A stretch of 64,000 nt of DNA from Fluviicola sp. (GTDB lineage Bacteria; Bacteroidota; Bacteroidia; Flavobacteriales_D; Crocinitomicaceae), in NCBI GenBank assembly GCA_029866325.1, contig JARWZO010000009.1, positions 1 through 64,000 of the forward strand. The letters run 5' to 3'. The notes beneath the pieces are model-generated. The model saw only the letters and a list, made by a program, of their open reading frames with translations. It made no database searches and was not told the origin of the DNA. Shown piece after piece: positions 8,463-17,000 of this stretch (positions within the stretch are counted from its first letter, which is position 1; every line of letters begins with the position of its first letter). A program made the position numbers and the translations under genes.

Positions 8463-8861
8463 TTACGCAACCACGTAGTCGGAGTCTGAATATTCTTTGA
8501 AATCAAACGGAACGCGCACCATGAAGGCATAGTCTTGTCCTACTTCATACATGTCTTCATCCGATTTGCGGTAGTACCACTCTACCTGAGCTTTCAGGCC
8601 GTTATCGACCAACTCATTGAGTTTGTACAATAGAAAAAGAATGCGCTTGGAAGAAGTGATGTTGAAATACTCCAAATCAATTTTCACAAGCGTAAGCTGT
8701 ATTGGCTGACGCATATAATCGTCAAACCAACTAAGAATTTCACCCCAAAATGCTTCAGGATCATCTGGAATTGATCTTCCTCTGATCTCCATAACTCCGG
8801 TGAGGTGATTTAAACTCACCATCGGAGTGTGTGCAGTCGCTTCAATACGTAACCCGTCCAT
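8463..8861 (-). CDS. SiaC-family (DUF1987) regulatory phosphoprotein
   Basis: 132 residues, STAS-like fold expected. The signature MEIRGRSIPDDPEAFW ... KIDLEYFNITSSKRILFLLYKL is that of DUF1987/SiaC. In Pseudomonas aeruginosa SiaC is phosphorylated by SiaB, dephosphorylated by SiaA and stimulates the diguanylate cyclase SiaD; the segment NITSSK contains the Thr/Ser region that corresponds to the phosphosite. No siaA, siaB or siaD gene is next to it, so its partners here must lie elsewhere. It has its own terminator and lies 127 bases after the BadF-type kinase gene. Confidence 0.85.
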   Translation of the reverse strand: MDGLRIEATAHTPMVSLNHLTGVMEIRGRSIPDDPEAFWGEILSWFDDYMRQPIQLTLVKIDLEYFNITSSKRILFLLYKLNELVDNGLKAQVEWYYRKSDEDMYEVGQDYAFMVRVPFDFKEYSDSDYVVA

Positions 8862-8988: not shown

Positions 8989-9831
8989 TCAAGCGTTTCC
9001 CGATTCGGTTGAATGGAAATCAATCAATCCTTTCATCGGATCTTTGCAAACCACTCCAAGGATCATAGATTGTTCAAGTAATAACTGACGCAACAACTCT
9101 CGTTGAGAAAACCCATAACTTCCTATTACCGATAGTGTTGTTGAATCACCTTTTACAGCTGATAAGGAAACATTCAGCCATTCATTTAGGTTGCGACGGT
9201 GATAATCAGAAAGATCGATGTTCTTAAAACGTGAACCGAGTTCGTTGAGCCAAACTTGTGCATCAGCACTGGCCAAACGCGCCAACACTTCAGCAGAAGA
9301 ACCCATTGTTTCTTGTAATTGATTCCGAATCGGAAGATTCATTCCGGAGGAAGCGGTTAAATAATCTTTCACCACCAAACGAGCGAAATAAAAACCACTG
9401 CCTTCATCGCCAATCAAACTTCCATATCCACCAACCCTACCGGTGATCTGTTGTCCGTCATATTCCAGCAGCACCGATCCTGTACCGAGAATAGCAACCA
9501 TTCCGCTGTTAGTGCCACAAGTAGCTCTGCAAGCCGCCAAGGTATCCGGAAACACCTTTGGTGATTCAAATCCCAATCGTGCCAAGCGTTCAATCATTGC
9601 CGTTTGTATGACCGACTGCGAACAACCTGCGCCATAGAAAAACAATTGTCCGGTCAAATTGTCGCCCAAACTATCCTTGAGTAATTGCCAGTCATTCTCT
9701 GTCCATGCATTCAGAAACTTCGGATGCATGCTTCTTGTTTCCAGCAATTTAACTTCTCCGTTAATTCCGCAAAAAGCCCACTTAGTGGTACTTCCTCCCG
9801 AATCGGCAATGATGTGTTTCCAACTTGTCAT
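8989..9831 (-). CDS. BadF/BadG-type ATPase, N-acetylglucosamine kinase-like
   Basis: 280 residues of the ASKHA fold. Phosphate-1 loop IIADSGGSTTKWAF at residues 8-20, then ILGTGSVLLEYDG and GGYGSLIGDEGSGFYFARL, the pattern of eukaryotic-type GlcNAc kinases and BadF relatives. In Bacteroidota such genes are usually annotated as GlcNAc kinases acting in amino-sugar or cell-wall recycling; this is family knowledge. Start: the ATG at 9831; a TTG two codons upstream is inferior. The promoter box TATTTTTG ends 3 bases before the ATG, so the mRNA may be leaderless. It is divergent from the imelysin operon. Confidence 0.83.
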   Translation of the reverse strand: MTSWKHIIADSGGSTTKWAFCGINGEVKLLETRSMHPKFLNAWTENDWQLLKDSLGDNLTGQLFFYGAGCSQSVIQTAMIERLARLGFESPKVFPDTLAACRATCGTNSGMVAILGTGSVLLEYDGQQITGRVGGYGSLIGDEGSGFYFARLVVKDYLTASSGMNLPIRNQLQETMGSSAEVLARLASADAQVWLNELGSRFKNIDLSDYHRRNLNEWLNVSLSAVKGDSTTLSVIGSYGFSQRELLRQLLLEQSMILGVVCKDPMKGLIDFHSTESGNA

Positions 9832-9834
9832 GAT

Positions 9835-9842
9835 CAAAAATA
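9835..9842 (-). promoter_or_regulatory. -7 box TATTTTTG of the BadF-type kinase gene
   Basis: Minus-strand TATTTTTG matches TAnnTTTG and stops 3 bases before the ATG at 9831. There is no clear TTG at -33. It suggests a leaderless transcript. Confidence 0.4.
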
Positions 9843-9856
9843 CCTTTTTTCGGGTA

Positions 9857-9887
9857 TTGCGGGCACAGAGCCTCCACCCTACTTTTG
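9857..9887 (+). promoter_or_regulatory. promoter of the imelysin/VKGC-like operon
   Basis: TTG (9857-9859), 20-base spacer, TACTTTTG (9880-9887): a full match to the Bacteroidota sigma-ABfr consensus. The ATG of the first gene is 25 bases downstream. It lies in an 81-base divergent intergenic region. Confidence 0.7.
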
Positions 9888-9912
9888 CCTTAATTTAAAA
9901 CAAATCTAAATA

Positions 9913-11052
9913 ATGAAACTTTCTATATATATTTTCGCTTTAGCCGCAGCCGTTTCCGCGACAGGTTGTAAGAAAAAAGGATGTACCGATCCTACCGCAT
10001 TGAATTACTCCGAGTCTGCTAAAAAAGACGACGGTTCGTGCAGTTATTCTACTACTTATGCGGTTCCAACAACCTATAACTTCACCAATGGTGCAGGAAA
10101 TTCTACTGTCAATTATAGCGGTCAAACCGATCGTCTTAATCAATTAAGAGAATTAATGGTGTATGTAAAATCCGGTAAAGATGGTGCCATTGTTGCGCAA
10201 AACATGGATGATATGTTTGTGAATACTGGCGGAAATGGCGGTGGAAATTTTTCATTCACTTCTACCAAACAATTAAAGGATAAGTGTTTTTCATTGGATC
10301 AAACACTGATTGAAAATTATTTTGATTCAGTTGCTTTGGCAAGTATTTCTTTTGCCAGTGCAGCATCCAACGGTCAGGCAGGAACGCTTACCACAGGAGC
10401 ATCAGAATATCTTTTCTCTGCCAATGGTGTTGAGTACGCACAATTGATTGAAAAAATCACCATGGGAGCAGTGTTTCAATACCAGGCATTGAATGTGTAT
10501 TTCGGAGATTCAAAAATGAATGTCGATAATACAACTGCCGTTGATCCGGCTAATGGATTGTATTACACAACGATGCAGCATCATTGGGATGAAGCGTTTG
10601 GATATTTTGGAGTACCTGTTGATTTCCCAACTACACCGGCTACCGATTTGTGGGGTAAATACTCCAATAGTCAAGACGCAGCGCTTTCTAGCAATGCGGT
10701 AATGATGGATAATTTCCTAAAAGGGCGTGCAGCTATCGATAACCTAAATTTGGAAGACCGGGATGTTGCAATTGCTAATATTCGTGAGATGTGGGAAAAA
10801 ATTGCGGCTTATCAAGCCATGGTCTATTTGGATCAGGCAATTGCCAGTTTCGGTACCGATAATGCCAAATTTCTTCACGTAACTTCAGAAGCCTATGCGT
10901 TTATCTACTGCTTACGTTATGCTCCGGTAGAAACACGTAACATGACAACACAAGAGGTTGCCGATGTGATTGCCGCTTTCGGTGATAACTTTTGGGAATT
11001 GAGTATTCAGGATTTGAATGCAATCAAAGCCAGTATTGACGCTAAGTATTAA
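9913..11052 (+). CDS. DUF4856 lipoprotein, first gene of imelysin/VKGC-like operon
   Basis: 379 residues. Signal sequence with lipidated Cys19 (AVSATGC). Directly after it comes one copy of the motif GCTDPTALNYSESAKKDDGSC (residues about 24-44), a cysteine-bounded acidic module frequent in secreted Bacteroidota proteins. The rest is a helical DUF4856 domain (YNFTNGAGNSTVNYSGQTDRL...). DUF4856 proteins are regularly found beside imelysins and are thought to be outer-membrane or periplasmic lipoproteins of iron-related operons; the function is unproven. It is 4 bases ahead of the imelysin gene and has a strong promoter upstream. Confidence 0.85.
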   Translation: MKLSIYIFALAAAVSATGCKKKGCTDPTALNYSESAKKDDGSCSYSTTYAVPTTYNFTNGAGNSTVNYSGQTDRLNQLRELMVYVKSGKDGAIVAQNMDDMFVNTGGNGGGNFSFTSTKQLKDKCFSLDQTLIENYFDSVALASISFASAASNGQAGTLTTGASEYLFSANGVEYAQLIEKITMGAVFQYQALNVYFGDSKMNVDNTTAVDPANGLYYTTMQHHWDEAFGYFGVPVDFPTTPATDLWGKYSNSQDAALSSNAVMMDNFLKGRAAIDNLNLEDRDVAIANIREMWEKIAAYQAMVYLDQAIASFGTDNAKFLHVTSEAYAFIYCLRYAPVETRNMTTQEVADVIAAFGDNFWELSIQDLNAIKASIDAKY

Positions 11053-11056
11053 AACC

Positions 11057-12130
11057 ATGAACAAAACACGTTATTGGTCGCTGATCGCTCTGTCACTTGC
11101 AGTGATAATGAGTAGTTGCAAAGACAAAAAGGAAGACGACACCAAGGAGGAATTCAAAAAAGAGGAAATCCTGTCGAATTTGGCGGATAATTACATTATT
11201 CCCGGATATGCCGATTTGCAAACACGGCTCAATACGCTTTCCGATTCGTGGAATAATTTTGTGAGTGCGCCTTCACAATCAACGCTCGACGCCGTGCGCT
11301 CTGACTGGCAAACTGCTAATGTGAGTTTTCATCGTGTAAAGTTGATTGAGGTAGGTCCGGCGATGACCGTAGGTTTAGCAAGTGCATTGGGAACTTTTCC
11401 GGCAGATACAACGCAAATTGAAACCAATATTACAGCAGGAACCTATAATCTGGCAACAGCAGAAAACATTGATGCTATCGGTTTTGAATCGCTTGACTTT
11501 TTGTTTTACGGTTCCGATTGTTTGAACAAACTGACCACTTCGGTGGCGCGCAGAACGTATGTGACAGATGTGATTGCAAAAATGCGCAACGAAGTCAATC
11601 AGGTCGTTTCGGATTGGTCGACCTACAGAAGTACATTCATTGCCGGAACAGGCACCTCTTCTACAAGCGCGTTTTCGGTATTGGTGAATGCATTCTGTAA
11701 AGATTTCGAATTGGCCAAAACAGCCAAACTGGGTATTCCGATTGGCACACAGAGTTTAGGCATTCAACAACCTGCTTATTTGGAAGCCCGTCGCTCGGGA
11801 TTTGGTAAAACATTGCTGCAAACCAATGTAGAAGCAGTTCATGCTGTTTTCTTAGGGAAATCATTAACAGGCAGCAACGGACAAGGATTTGATGATTATT
11901 TAGTTGCATTGGATAGAGGAAGCTTATCTTCAACCGTAGATGCTCGATTCGCTTACATGGTAAGTCAGCCCGAGGGTTGGAGCGGAACAATTGAAAACAT
12001 GATGACCAGCTCACCTTCCACCTTGACCGATTATTACAATTACATGCAAGGCACGGTTGTTTATCTGAAAACGGATATGGCTGCTGCTTTTGGTGTATTG
12101 ATTACGTACCAAGATAATGACGGCGATTAG
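11057..12130 (+). CDS. imelysin-family lipoprotein with altered GxHxxE motif
   Basis: 357 residues from the ATG at 11057, chosen because it begins the signal peptide MNKTRYWSLIALSLAVIMSSC (lipid Cys21). An acidic-basic linker (KDKKEDDTKEEFKKEE) follows. The imelysin/IrpA fold shows SDWQTANVSFHRVKLIEVGP (about 82-101) and the second half repeats the helical pattern. The peptidase-family M75 motif GxHxxE is replaced by GFESLD (142-147), so peptidase activity is doubtful; IrpA-like proteins bind iron or haem instead (family knowledge). It overlaps the next gene by 14 bases, suggesting translational coupling. Confidence 0.85.
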   Translation: MNKTRYWSLIALSLAVIMSSCKDKKEDDTKEEFKKEEILSNLADNYIIPGYADLQTRLNTLSDSWNNFVSAPSQSTLDAVRSDWQTANVSFHRVKLIEVGPAMTVGLASALGTFPADTTQIETNITAGTYNLATAENIDAIGFESLDFLFYGSDCLNKLTTSVARRTYVTDVIAKMRNEVNQVVSDWSTYRSTFIAGTGTSSTSAFSVLVNAFCKDFELAKTAKLGIPIGTQSLGIQQPAYLEARRSGFGKTLLQTNVEAVHAVFLGKSLTGSNGQGFDDYLVALDRGSLSSTVDARFAYMVSQPEGWSGTIENMMTSSPSTLTDYYNYMQGTVVYLKTDMAAAFGVLITYQDNDGD

Positions 12131-13511
12131 CAATCGCATAAATAGCTATTTATTCAGAGGGGTTTCTATAGCCCCTCTTGTGGCATTTAGAATCATTTTC
12201 GGAGCGCTGATGTTGTTTGGTGTACTCCGATTTATACTCAAAGGTTGGGTTCAGGATTTGTACATTACTCCGCAGTTCTATTTTCCGTACCTCGGATTTG
12301 AATGGATCAAACCGCTTCCCGGTGATTGGATGTATATACCTTTCTTGTTAATGGTTGTGGCGGCCATCGGTATTTTACTCGGATTTCGGTACCGTTTTTC
12401 AGCAATCTTATTTTTTGTCTGTTTTACGTATGTTGAGTTAATCGACAAAAGCAATTACCTCAATCATTATTACTTTGTAAGTCTGGTATCGTTTCTACTT
12501 TGTTGGGTTCCTGCAAATGCCTGTTTTTCATTGGATGCGCATCGCAAACACTCCATACGCAAACATCTTGTACCAGCATGGACTATTCTGATCATTCAGC
12601 TGCAACTGGGCATGGTTTACTTTTTTGCAGGTGTTGCCAAGTTGAATACTGATTGGCTCTTTCATGCGCAACCGCTCAAAATATGGCTTCAAACTTATCG
12701 CGACATGCCTTATTTGGGTTCGGTTTTCGCCAGTGCATGGCTCGCATTTGCCTTTAGCTGGTTTGGTTGTATCTATGATCTTACGATTCCTTTTTTTCTT
12801 AGCTTCCGCAAAACCAGACTTTACGCCTATTTTTTTGTGATCGTTTTTCACATCGTTACCTGGTTGCTGTTTCCGATTGGTGTTTTTCCGTGGGTGATGA
12901 TTTTCAGCACGTTGATTTTTTTCTCTCCTGAATTTCACATGCGTTGGATCAATGCGCTGAAGAGTCTGTTTGGAAAAAAGCGTTGTGAAATCAACCAAGA
13001 AACGGTCAATTCGCCAAAATCACCCCGAACAATAACATGGTTGGTGGGTATTTATCTGGCTATTCAAGTGCTGGTTCCGCTTCGATTTGTCTTGTACCCC
13101 GGAAACCTGTTCTGGAACGAAGAAGGATTCCGTTTTTCGTGGCGTGTGATGCTGATGCACAAAGAAGGATATGCCACTTTTTATGTGGTAGATCCGAAAA
13201 CCAACAACAGCATTCAAATTGTAAACAGCGATTACCTCACGCCTACTCAGGTTGATCAAATGGCGACGCAGCCTGACATGATTCTGCAATTCGCGCACCA
13301 TTTAGGAAAACAGTTCAACGATACCATTATTCATTACGGTAAGCAGCAAGTGCATTTGAAACACCCCAAAATAGAAGCGGAAGTTTTTGTATCGCTCAAC
13401 GGACGACCGCATCAACTATTTATTGGTCGCACAACGAATTTACTCAACGAAACTTATTCTTTGAAACACCGAACATGGCTGGAAACATTTCACGATACGG
13501 CAAATTTTTAA
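12117..13511 (+). CDS. HTTM-domain membrane protein, vitamin-K-dependent gamma-carboxylase-like
   Basis: 464 residues with several membrane helices in residues 20-270 and a periplasmic-type C-terminal part. From memory of human GGCX, colinear similarity is clear: LPGDWMYIPFLLMVVAAIGILLGFRYR (67-93), DKSNYLNHYYF (110-120) and VYFFAGVAKLNTDW (167-180). His117 and Lys175 fall on GGCX His160 and the catalytic base Lys218 with the same offset of 43, so the active site appears kept. GGCX converts Glu to gamma-carboxyglutamate using vitamin K hydroquinone, O2 and CO2; menaquinol could serve in this phylum (inference). The protein is shorter than GGCX (758). It overlaps imelysin by 14 and the TonB receptor gene by 37 bases. 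Confidence 0.85.
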   Translation: MTAISNRINSYLFRGVSIAPLVAFRIIFGALMLFGVLRFILKGWVQDLYITPQFYFPYLGFEWIKPLPGDWMYIPFLLMVVAAIGILLGFRYRFSAILFFVCFTYVELIDKSNYLNHYYFVSLVSFLLCWVPANACFSLDAHRKHSIRKHLVPAWTILIIQLQLGMVYFFAGVAKLNTDWLFHAQPLKIWLQTYRDMPYLGSVFASAWLAFAFSWFGCIYDLTIPFFLSFRKTRLYAYFFVIVFHIVTWLLFPIGVFPWVMIFSTLIFFSPEFHMRWINALKSLFGKKRCEINQETVNSPKSPRTITWLVGIYLAIQVLVPLRFVLYPGNLFWNEEGFRFSWRVMLMHKEGYATFYVVDPKTNNSIQIVNSDYLTPTQVDQMATQPDMILQFAHHLGKQFNDTIIHYGKQQVHLKHPKIEAEVFVSLNGRPHQLFIGRTTNLLNETYSLKHRTWLETFHDTANF

Positions 13512-15898
13512 CCGGGCTCATAGCTCTGTTCTTCGCTGCTAACGGACTGTCTCAAACGGTTTCCGGAACGGTGATTGGCAACGATAAACAACCTGTTTTC
13601 GGCCTTTCCGTTTCATGTGGAAGTATGATCGGCAAAACAGATGTTGAAGGAAAATTCACTGTACCCTGTTCAGGTAAAACACTCGCATTCTTTTCAGAAG
13701 AATTGGATACGGTTTTCATTACCTTGGACGCATTTCAGCAACAAGGATCGAAAATACAGCTTAAACAAACAGCTACAGAACTCCAGGAAGTGGAAATCAA
13801 AAGCAGGTTGTTGTTTTTCGACATCGGATACCTGCCGCCGATCAAAGGTGTTCAGATAGCCACCGGAACCAGTTCAATCATCCAAACAGAAAGTCAGAGT
13901 GGCGCCAAATCGACCGGAAACCCGCGTGAATTGTTTGCCAAAGTTCCCGGACTGAACATTTGGGAAAGTGATGGTGCAGGAATCCAAATGGGAGTTGGTG
14001 GCCGCGGATTGAGTCCCAACAGAGCCGCTAATTTCAACATGCGCCAAAACGGTTACGATATCAGTGCCGATGCCTTAGGTTATCCCGAAAGTTATTACAC
14101 GCCTCCGTTGGAAGCATTAAGTTCCATCGAAATCATTCGCGGTTCGGCTTCGTTGCAATACGGTACGCAATTCGGCGGATTGATGAATTTCGTGATGAAA
14201 GAACCGAATCAACGTTCACCGATAGAATTTACAACCCGAAATACCGTTGGCAGCTATGGATACATCGGCACGTTTAATCGCATCAGCGGAACGCATAACA
14301 GATTCGAATATCAGGCGTATTACCAACTAAAAACCGGGAACGGCTACCGCATCAACAGCGATTTTACCCAACATCAAGGATTTGCTCAGGTGGGTTACCA
14401 CATCAACGAAAATCAACGAATTCGTTTGGAATATACACGTATGTCCTACCTGGCGCAACAAGCCGGCGGACTCACCGACAAACAATTTGAAGAAGATCCG
14501 TTGCAAAGTGTCCGCGACCGCAATTGGTTCAAGGTCAACTGGAATGTGCTGGCATTGCACTACGATTGGGAAATCAGTAAAACCACGCGTTTTAATGTGC
14601 GTGCTTTCGGGATGGTTTCACAACGACTTTCTTTGGGATTTTTAGGCAAAATCAGTCAAGCAGATCCGGGCGGAAACCGTGAAATGATTCAAGGCGATTT
14701 TAAAAACGCAGGAGTAGAAGCACGTTTATTACACCGCTATTCCGTCTCTAAAAAAGCATCCATCATTGGCGTTGTTTTGGTTGGAGCACGTTATTACCAA
14801 GGACAAACAACCAGTATACAGGGAACTGCTCCTACAGGAAGAGATGCCAATTTTCAACTCCTTCATCCGGATGATGTGGAAAATTCGTCGTTTTCCTTTC
14901 CGTCTAAAAATGCGGCTGCTTTTGTTGAGAATATTTGGTTTATCAAACAACGCTGGACCGTAAACGCAGGAGCTCGACTGGAATATATTACCAGCGCCTC
15001 GAGTGGATTTTACAAACAATACTCCATTCACCCGCTCAATTTCGATACGTTGGCCGTGTATAAGATCGAAGATGAAAATCAGCTGACGCGCACTGTTCCT
15101 TTGGCCGGAATAGGAAGTTCATTTAAAACCGGAAAACTCTCTAGTTTGTACACCAATTTCTGTATGAACTACCGTGCGGTGAATTTCAACGACATTCGTA
15201 TTAACAATGCCAATATCATTGTAGACACGCTGATTCGCGACGAATACGGTTCTACCACCGAATTGGGCTGGCGCGGATTTGTGGTGCCTTATCTTTATGT
15301 GGATGTTGCTGCATTCTACCTTTTTTACGGCGATAAAATCGGTCTGGCACCGCAACCAAATGGTGTGAAGAAGATTCGCACCAACATTGGAGATGCGGTC
15401 AACAAGGGAGTTGAATTGTTTGCAGAATTTGATTTCATCAAAGCGTTTCGCGATAGCGCCAAAATCAGTTCATCGGTATTCGTGAACTTTTCGTACATCG
15501 ACGCGAAATATGTGCGCTCGAAAGAAAGCAATTACATTGGTAAACAAGTTGAATATGTGAGTCCGGTTTTGCTGAGGGCAGGATTAAAAATTCGTCATGA
15601 TCGTTGGAGTGCGCAATTACAAGGTTCTTATAATTCCAGTCAGTTTGCCGATGCCTCCAACGCAGTAGAACCTAGCGGCGATGCGGTAATTGGTGAAATT
15701 CCGGCCTATTTTGTGGTCGATTTTTCAGCGCGTTACGCGTTCAGAAAGTTTTTTCAGCTTGAATTTGGCATTAATAACATGCTGAATAGTTCTTACTACA
15801 CCCGACGCGCCACTGCTTATCCGGGGCCGGGTATTTTACCTTCCGACGGCATTAATTTTTATACTACTTTGCAGTTCAAATTAGGCGAAGGAAAATAA
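13475..15898 (+). CDS. TonB-dependent receptor, FecA-like
   Basis: 807 residues. Signal peptide at 1-26 (FLTGLIALFFAANGLSQ), a carboxypeptidase-like regulatory domain to about residue 100, a plug domain, then a 22-strand barrel ending in an aromatic-rich strand. The plug contains GGRGLSPNRAANFNMRQNGYDISADALGYPESYYTPPLEAL, a stretch nearly the same as in ferric-citrate receptors (FecA) as I recall them, followed by IEIIRGSASLQYGTQFGG. A ferric carboxylate or similar iron chelate is therefore the likely cargo. The start lies within the preceding gene (37-base overlap) but gives the signal peptide. A kinase gene follows after 1 base. Confidence 0.88.
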   Translation: MAGNISRYGKFLTGLIALFFAANGLSQTVSGTVIGNDKQPVFGLSVSCGSMIGKTDVEGKFTVPCSGKTLAFFSEELDTVFITLDAFQQQGSKIQLKQTATELQEVEIKSRLLFFDIGYLPPIKGVQIATGTSSIIQTESQSGAKSTGNPRELFAKVPGLNIWESDGAGIQMGVGGRGLSPNRAANFNMRQNGYDISADALGYPESYYTPPLEALSSIEIIRGSASLQYGTQFGGLMNFVMKEPNQRSPIEFTTRNTVGSYGYIGTFNRISGTHNRFEYQAYYQLKTGNGYRINSDFTQHQGFAQVGYHINENQRIRLEYTRMSYLAQQAGGLTDKQFEEDPLQSVRDRNWFKVNWNVLALHYDWEISKTTRFNVRAFGMVSQRLSLGFLGKISQADPGGNREMIQGDFKNAGVEARLLHRYSVSKKASIIGVVLVGARYYQGQTTSIQGTAPTGRDANFQLLHPDDVENSSFSFPSKNAAAFVENIWFIKQRWTVNAGARLEYITSASSGFYKQYSIHPLNFDTLAVYKIEDENQLTRTVPLAGIGSSFKTGKLSSLYTNFCMNYRAVNFNDIRINNANIIVDTLIRDEYGSTTELGWRGFVVPYLYVDVAAFYLFYGDKIGLAPQPNGVKKIRTNIGDAVNKGVELFAEFDFIKAFRDSAKISSSVFVNFSYIDAKYVRSKESNYIGKQVEYVSPVLLRAGLKIRHDRWSAQLQGSYNSSQFADASNAVEPSGDAVIGEIPAYFVVDFSARYAFRKFFQLEFGINNMLNSSYYTRRATAYPGPGILPSDGINFYTTLQFKLGEGK

Positions 15899-15899
15899 A

Positions 15900-16784
15900 A
15901 TGATTCCGTCAGAAAAGTATCGTATTATTCAACGATTAGGCAAACAGCAACAGCGCAAGTTCGGCGAAGTGTTTCTGGTGGAAGATAAAATCACCTGTGA
16001 ATCAGGAACAATGAAAGTTGTTGCCAAATCGGGAAATGAACTTCGGGAATTGCGCTTACGTGCCGAAGCAGGTTTTTCGTTTGATCATTCGCAGCTTCCA
16101 AAAACGCTCTATTCCTTTGAAACGGAAACAGAATTGGTGGTGGTGAAAAATCACTTTCCTGGCGTTCCGCTTGACGTATTTCTGAAATCGGTTAAATCAA
16201 AGCAAAAACCCGCCGTTTTATTACGCTTACTAACGCAATTGAAACCCATTTTTGATGAATTGAATCGGCAATACATTGTTCATTTAGACATCAAACCATC
16301 GAATCTGATTATCAACGGAACTGCAAAACAATTTGAGCTGTATTTGATTGATTTCGGGATGGCGATGCGAACCAACCAAATGGATCACCGCGGTACGTTA
16401 TTTCCTTTAGGATACGCTGCTCCTGAGTTGTTGCTCAACAGGCTTCATCTGGCAGATCAGCGCACCGATTTGTTTGCTCTGGGAATTGTGTTGTGGCAAT
16501 CGTTCACAGGAAAACTCCCTTTACTTCATCCCAATCCGAGTATCACAACCAACCTGCAACTTACTCATCCACTGCCAGATCACGATGACATTCCGAAGCG
16601 TTATTTGTCCATTCTAAAACGATTGTGCGCCAAATACAGTTTTGGTGTTCCGCCCAATCAATTGCCAAGCGAAACCATGGATGCCTATTTGAAAGAAGCG
16701 ATGGATCAGCGTTACACTAGTTTGGAAGAAGTAATTAGCAATTGGAAAGCAGCGCTGGAAAAGAAGAGGTGGTTTGGGTTTTAG
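15900..16784 (+). CDS. Hanks-type serine/threonine protein kinase
   Basis: 294 residues, soluble, essentially only a kinase domain. Gly-rich loop LGKQQQRKFGEVF (13-25), candidate ATP lysine Lys39 in GTMKVV, catalytic loop HLDIKPSNL, metal-binding IDFGMA and APELLLNR are all present, so it looks active. No membrane anchor or sensing domain. It starts 1 base after the TonB receptor stop, as last gene of the imelysin/VKGC-like operon. A kinase in an iron-uptake-type operon is unusual; its substrates are not evident. Confidence 0.87.
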   Translation: MIPSEKYRIIQRLGKQQQRKFGEVFLVEDKITCESGTMKVVAKSGNELRELRLRAEAGFSFDHSQLPKTLYSFETETELVVVKNHFPGVPLDVFLKSVKSKQKPAVLLRLLTQLKPIFDELNRQYIVHLDIKPSNLIINGTAKQFELYLIDFGMAMRTNQMDHRGTLFPLGYAAPELLLNRLHLADQRTDLFALGIVLWQSFTGKLPLLHPNPSITTNLQLTHPLPDHDDIPKRYLSILKRLCAKYSFGVPPNQLPSETMDAYLKEAMDQRYTSLEEVISNWKAALEKKRWFGF

Positions 16785-16792
16785 AAGGTTAT

Positions 16793-16977
16793 GCTAACTA
16801 ATTTTCTAACATGTCCCGTAGGGACAACATATTGTAACATGTCTTACACACCAATACCAACCGCCCCGTAGGGTCGGGATATAAAAAACGTTATTTGTCT
16901 CACCCCTACGGGGTGAAAACTAAATGATGAATACAAATTCTATAATATTTCGTCCCTATGGGACTTATTTAGTTAGC
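16793..16977. repeat. 185-bp element with terminal inverted repeats and four CCC-GGG hairpins
   Basis: GCTAACTAA (16793-16801) and TTAGTTAGC (16969-16977) are exact inverted ends. Inside are GTCCCGTAGGGAC (16813-16825), a looser CCCCGTAGGGTCGGG (about 16864-16878), CACCCCTACGGGGTG (16901-16915) and GTCCCTATGGGAC (16952-16964). Such CCCNTANGGG hairpins are REP-like. It fills the gap between two convergent genes. Confidence 0.7.
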
Positions 16978-17000
16978 AGCAAACTACAAAGGTTATTTAC

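Follow-up and report, generated by a model that had tools for sequence, protein, structure and literature searches.

The locus lies in a 64,000-nucleotide stretch of a Fluviicola sp. contig (JARWZO010000009.1), referred to here in its entirety as the window. Five genes are packed on its forward strand: a DUF4856 lipoprotein, an imelysin, a VKGC/GGCX homologue, a TonB-dependent receptor and a Hanks-type kinase (Table 1). The gaps of +4, -14, -37 and +1 bases claimed in an earlier, sequence-only reading were borne out by the ORF coordinates, and the gene identities by Pfam. The imelysin was taken to begin at its lipoprotein start (11057); the mechanical ORF begins at 11018. "FecA-like", the name given to the receptor in that reading, is a loose label, as FecA is its best NCBIfam model (8.8e-32) but scores 109.9 bits against a cut-off of 1100. 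No DHOR gene was found by Pfam among the five genes. A GCTDPTALNY...DDGSC stretch (9966-10050), a motif known from other surface proteins of Bacteroidota, follows the lipobox Cys of the DUF4856 protein. Several short palindromes, possibly REP-like, were seen by eye around CCCGTAGGG / CCTACGGG, 3' of the kinase (16800-16980).

Table 1. Features of the operon and its surroundings in the window.
Feature	Position	Strand	Remarks
SiaC-family regulatory phosphoprotein gene	8463-8861	-	divergent, upstream of operon
282-aa gene	8989-9837	-	no Pfam match; divergent, upstream of operon
Bacteroidota-type promoter-like site, TTG-N20-TAnnTTTG	9857..9887	+	pattern match
Fur-box-like palindrome	9893..9911	.	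one base before the operon's first ATG; 16/19
DUF4856 lipoprotein	9913..11052	+	PF16148 2.2e-46; lipobox Cys19 in 99% of 137 rows
IPPA-type imelysin lipoprotein	11057..12130	+	Pfam imelysin 1.1e-27
Imelysin C-terminal tail, DNDGD codons	12113..12127	+	low confidence/flexible in model
VKGC/GGCX homologue, nine-helix HTTM domain and periplasmic (predicted) lumenal domain	12117..13511	+	HTTM 7e-85; VKGC_lumenal_dom 4.6e-46
Asn116 and His117 codons (human N159, H160)	12462..12467	+	kept in 81/81 rows
Lys175 codon (human catalytic base K218)	12639..12641	+	kept in 81/81 rows
VKGC lumenal domain	13029..13493	+	PF22777
TonB-dependent receptor	13475..15898	+	PF00593 (barrel) and PF07715 (plug)
Hanks-type kinase	15900..16784	+	PF00069 (Pkinase) 1.4e-22; lineage-specific neighbour, probably outside the conserved unit

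The sequence-only reading had named recurrence of the neighbourhood in related genomes as a test of its proposal, and the neighbourhood does recur. A PF22777 search of a 395-genome sample of the phylum found the domain in 82 genomes at 96 places. One of these is in the window; of the other 95, 94 were fetched (the place in genome G375 was left out), giving 95 loci with the window. In 64 of these, VKGC was preceded by DUF4856 and imelysin and followed by a TonB receptor, all on one strand. The remaining loci comprised six that lacked only DUF4856, two partial loci (receptor without imelysin) and 23 other contexts. A scan of named genomes confirmed 577 loci; the best 80, a sample that leans to the operon type, contained all four genes in 72 loci, imelysin-VKGC-receptor in 77, an imelysin in 78 and a receptor in 79; in those 79 the receptor follows VKGC. 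Taxa in the locus record titles included: Flavobacteriales, Cytophagales, Chitinophagales, Saprospiraceae, Balneola and Rhodothermaceae. The window enzyme shares a median identity of about 45% with operon-type members, so gene order was held despite much drift, and an arrangement that recurs throughout the phylum is far beyond chance. DUF4856, IPPA-type imelysin, VKGC/GGCX homologue and TonB receptor thus form a four-gene unit conserved across much of Bacteroidota. The kinase, counted in the operon by the sequence-only reading, was rejected as a component: it recurs in only two of the best 80 of 577 loci (L126 and L127) and was absent from all 94 loci sampled outside the window. In L126 and L127 a minus-strand gene about as long as the window's 282-aa gene (274 and 269 codons) also lies upstream.

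VKGC also occurs away from iron genes: in one of the other contexts (L065), Pfam shows an FAD synthetase gene on one side of it and a seryl-tRNA synthetase gene on the other. This context lends some support to mere co-regulation, in which VKGC would be carried in the operon without acting on its neighbours; that reading is highly improbable given an order and overlaps kept across much of the phylum and the tightly coupled presence of the genes. Judged by gene lengths, a layout like that of L065 is shared by L070, L074, L081, L082 and L086-L088. Among plasmids, one alphaproteobacterial case was seen, a VKGC/HTTM gene of a Paracoccus albus plasmid (L211, 7968-9359), with no imelysin or receptor annotated nearby.

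The first gene is preceded by two candidate control elements. What the sequence-only reading called a full-consensus promoter is present as a pattern, TTG-N20-TAnnTTTG, presumably the Bacteroidota promoter motif; with three occurrences in the window against 1.74 expected, the match alone is no more than chance. The Fur-box-like palindrome, which the sequence-only reading had missed, lies just 3' of the -7-like element, probably at the expected transcription start. Sites were scored against the consensus predicted for Riemerella anatipestifer, a relative and not the host, as given in the part of PMC5609570 available to us. The window score was equalled by one of 2000 dinucleotide shuffles of the same upstream region. 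A score of at least 15/19 was reached by 120 of 138 upstream regions and by 39 of 1065 control ORFs, the controls having an AT content of 0.61 against 0.66. With duplicates removed (L170 equals L040; L079 and L121 are identical over the last 300 residues), the counts were 119 of 137 homologous upstream regions and 63 of 2740 dinucleotide shuffles.

Expression data from R. anatipestifer also connect the operon to iron. Table 4 of PMC5609570, a source available in part, lists RAYM_09779-09794 as a TonB receptor, a "vitamin K-dependent gamma-carboxylase", an imelysin lipoprotein and a hypothetical protein, a set matching that of the window. From the R. columbina locus (L198), the hypothetical protein is presumably DUF4856. 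The four genes are iron-responsive (WT-Fe/WT+Fe 2.11-3.07), and in the fur mutant the response persists (2.70-3.07), with a fur effect of 1.36-1.93 in iron-rich medium (PMC5609570, same part). Because the response is kept in the mutant and the fur effect is modest, the table is stronger evidence for a response to iron than for dependence on Fur. The link to iron drawn in the sequence-only reading is thus upheld by the Fur-box-like site and by published iron-responsive expression in a relative.

The window enzyme scored 285 bits for HTTM and 157 bits for the VKGC lumenal domain, where both curated cut-offs are 27.7. Superposition on GGCX, a further test set by the sequence-only reading, succeeded with the predicted structure, in which the transmembrane and lumenal core adopts the VKGC/GGCX fold. 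His117 and Lys175, said in that reading to be colinear with human His160 and Lys218 at a constant offset of 43, are so placed, also with an 81-row profile. In the cryo-EM paper PMC12589487 (available in part), K218 is the base and N159 and H160 hold the Glu. Ten positions (human numbering) are invariant in all 81 rows: K218, N159, H160, W223, F286, F294, F299, A214, W399 and M402; V210 and G259 are kept in 79 and S398 in 80. The vitamin K pocket is mostly kept, the exceptions being M401 (Val in 81/81) and N290 (Thr in 81/81). Changes at the auxiliary Glu-pocket positions were: N158 to Leu in 81/81 and R436 to Gln in 49 and Met in 27 of the 81 rows. At human Y395, 59 of the 81 rows have Tyr and 22 have Phe, as does the window enzyme. 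Human K217, not catalytic in GGCX according to the same part of PMC12589487, is matched by Ala in 74 of 81 rows. The enzyme therefore keeps the catalytic and most of the quinone-binding residues of GGCX, from which carboxylase/epoxidase activity is predicted.

Alignment to human GGCX stops at about 505-512, which leaves the bacterial protein without most of the propeptide-binding and arch-like regions, and substrate capture must differ from that of the animal enzyme. If GGCX topology is assumed, 80 of the 81 rows follow the positive-inside rule, a pattern that would place the lumenal domain in the periplasm. Compared with human GGCX (PDB 9wfc, 9l6r, 9bvk), the window enzyme shares the fold, K218, N159 and H160; it differs in lacking most of those two regions, in replacements at N158, K217, M401, N290 and R436, and in having operon partners.

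These residues bear on the main rival to carboxylation, a menaquinol epoxidase or oxidoreductase in DHOR's place whose base or redox chemistry would act on the iron ligand or on metal release without carboxylating anything. It draws on the altered auxiliary Glu-pocket residues, and on the Leptospira VKGC homologue, like the window enzyme a bacterial VKGC, which reportedly epoxidises without detectable carboxylation. It draws also on gene order, since in the classic cassettes the IPPA imelysin follows DHOR, and here its neighbour is VKGC instead. Pure quinol redox would need neither of the Glu-holding residues N159 and H160, which are invariant in all 81 rows and also in 25 VKGC rows from other contexts, and we consider this reading unlikely. 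The N158, Y395 and R436 positions are not invariant in the other contexts either. In the 25 rows from those contexts, N was seen at human 158 in 15 and His at the Tyr395 position in 21.

The window imelysin has an imelysin fold, its model matching imelysins and, more distantly, Algp7, EfeO and EfeM. The GxHxxE motif is missing in 146 of 148 operon imelysins and reads GFESLD in the window. The motif His position is Pro in 109 of 145 operon imelysins (Glu in the window), and the last motif position is Asp in 118 of 145. In the IPPA/PA4372 family, as described in the part of PMC3143127 available, the motif is GxxxxE, with the His replaced by Pro. The exact C-terminal DGD is present in 141 of 145 aligned operon imelysins.

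The linker KDKKEDDTKEEFKKEE, put forward in the sequence-only reading as a Gla site, was discarded: its Glu positions are not conserved, none of its columns being a conserved Glu among 145 operon imelysins, and imelysins encoded elsewhere than in the operon can be acidic behind the lipobox too. Such acidity just after the Cys can serve as a lipoprotein export signal.

Across the 395 genomes, imelysin candidates (up to five per genome, E <= 1e-20) were scored with a profile built from the operon imelysins, and a tail was called from how far the profile match extended rather than by reading individual sequences. By this measure an IPPA-type imelysin, with a match reaching the tail, was found in 72 of 82 VKGC-positive and in 0 of 313 VKGC-negative genomes. 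Nine of the ten VKGC-positive genomes without a tailed imelysin were read and none is of operon type; the tenth is G375, which was not fetched. In four genomes the tailed imelysin lies away from VKGC, in cassettes of imelysin, a 471-488 aa gene and imelysin; the middle gene is DHOR in the two checked by Pfam (L215, L217). In the Bacteroidota imelysin-DHOR-imelysin cassettes L215-L218, the second imelysin has the DGD tail and lacks GxHxxE.

The tail could itself be the substrate, its Asp becoming beta-carboxyaspartate. Its near-invariance in the operon, its flexibility in the predicted structure and the restriction of tailed profile matches to the 72 VKGC-positive genomes, including copies far from VKGC, fit such a role. 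Psychrobacter PDB 3pf0 has the same C-terminal DGD, with the final six residues disordered in the crystal, and five proteobacterial plasmid imelysins (L232-L236) carry it as well, all without an adjacent VKGC; the tail is thus a mark of the IPPA kind and, on present evidence, not readable as a VKGC substrate. DxDGD-stop outside imelysins was no commoner where VKGC is present, with 23 matches in 70 VKGC-positive and 28 in 70 VKGC-negative genomes (counted by eye with frames unchecked; G338 left out). The tail was accordingly demoted as leading substrate, and we regard modification of it as very unlikely. A free C-terminal DGD tail appears common to IPPA-type imelysins of Bacteroidota and Proteobacteria; no comment on it was met in the available part of PMC3143127.

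A substrate other than the imelysin, namely DUF4856, the TonB receptor or a small-molecule metal ligand, is the next possibility. DUF4856 tracks VKGC, being found in 58 of the 395 genomes, 53 of them VKGC-positive, and its Glu326 is invariant in the operon rows. The receptor, for its part, has several invariant Glu and is the gene that follows VKGC in nearly all of the best 80 of 577 loci. Against this, six of the 70 operons with imelysin and receptor lack DUF4856, and five genomes have DUF4856 without VKGC, three of these copies keeping Glu326. Those five loci (L206-L210) had no adjacent imelysin, and a TonB receptor was present in two. Comparison of the five VKGC-negative sequences gave no clear candidate for a Glu lost from DUF4856, and no conserved Glu stands out as VKGC-specific. 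DUF4856 was also considered as a divergent imelysin and rejected, as the profile comparison aligned signal peptides only; no credible solved structural relative was found (best E 0.23).

A stripped locus bears on the same question. L076 (genome G108) and L058 (G203), of the same genus, share flanks whose proteins are 82-95% identical. L058 has the full operon; L076 has VKGC alone, open, 456 aa and 71% identical, and tblastn found no remnants of DUF4856, imelysin or receptor there. At this site, then, VKGC stays without receptor and DUF4856. The sole tailed imelysin of G108 lies elsewhere, in a DHOR cassette (L217), and the genome has a second VKGC (L110). This agrees with the imelysin being the relevant partner; it is a single case, and its direction would be loss, not gain. 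Taken with the evidence on DUF4856 and the receptor, a different substrate seems unlikely.

Other genome-wide partners were considered. VKOR, which recycles vitamin K epoxide in animals, was rejected as a partner, being found in 16 of 71 VKGC-positive and 26 of 70 VKGC-negative genomes (G338 left out) and absent from the window's own genome. Since it is not enriched, nothing here points to a vitamin K cycle like that of animals, and a menaquinone-making bacterium may not need VKOR-type recycling. None of 17 COX1-less genomes had VKGC (p 0.03); this and the other genome statistics treat genomes as independent, uncorrected for kinship. This fits O2 use weakly, COX1 being a weak aerobic marker because it is nearly ubiquitous (378/395).

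The nearest known systems include the Fur-regulated imelysin-DHOR-IPPA operons PA4370-4372 and VC1264-1266, as described in the part of PMC3143127 available. They share with the window operon the IPPA-type imelysin with its DGD tail, iron control and an outer-membrane uptake context. They differ in that VKGC and DUF4856 here replace DHOR and the GxHxxE imelysin, and in that the window operon has its own receptor directly 3' of VKGC. In Leptospira, the imelysin genes of an imelysin-DHOR cluster are induced under iron limitation (two among PMC7567364, PMC13066512, PMC9478572, PMC5561996 and PMC9146348, in the parts available). Within the open-licence PMC literature, nothing was found on HTTM together with imelysin or on DUF4856, and only PMC5609570 was found for a bacterial vitamin K-dependent gamma-carboxylase with TonB; in the part of that paper available, the Riemerella carboxylase is a table entry without comment. 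As coverage was of open-licence PMC only, the operon may be described elsewhere.

The operon would encode an outer-membrane uptake system, repressed by iron, whose cargo is iron or a ligand that carries it; the lipoproteins may bind or pass on this cargo and the TonB receptor would import it. The VKGC homologue would be an inner-membrane enzyme whose catalytic face looks into the periplasm. By analogy with established GGCX chemistry, it would use O2, CO2 and menaquinol, the usual quinone of Bacteroidota, on a periplasmic substrate. It may carboxylate an acidic residue of a partner lipoprotein, Glu likelier than Asp, giving a malonate-like metal ligand. The imelysin is the most likely substrate, a choice made with less assurance than the reaction. 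This reading, in which VKGC carboxylates a partner lipoprotein, most likely the imelysin, of an iron-repressed uptake system, is the one we favour, at a little under even chances. Weighing against it are the replaced auxiliary Glu-pocket residues, the lack of VKOR enrichment, the proteobacterial plasmid IPPA imelysins with no VKGC beside them, the L065 context, the Leptospira report and the iron response kept in the Riemerella fur mutant.

To our knowledge, the role of bacterial vitamin K-dependent carboxylase homologues has been unsettled since one was noticed in Leptospira. A Fur-boxed operon found across Bacteroidota supplies defined candidate substrates, a growth condition, iron limitation, and non-pathogenic hosts, among them Flavobacterium humi (L205) and Christiangramia lutea (L172), and so makes that role directly testable. 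A broader and more doubtful possibility is that vitamin K-type carboxylation began as an ancient bacterial iron-uptake device, menaquinol-dependent and making malonate-like metal ligands on an outer-membrane imelysin-type lipoprotein under iron limitation, with the animal clotting enzyme a later re-use. If carboxylation is true, it would add a protein modification new to bacteria, and the origin of the animal vitamin K system would have to be seen differently; if it is false, the operon would reveal what else VKGC chemistry can do.
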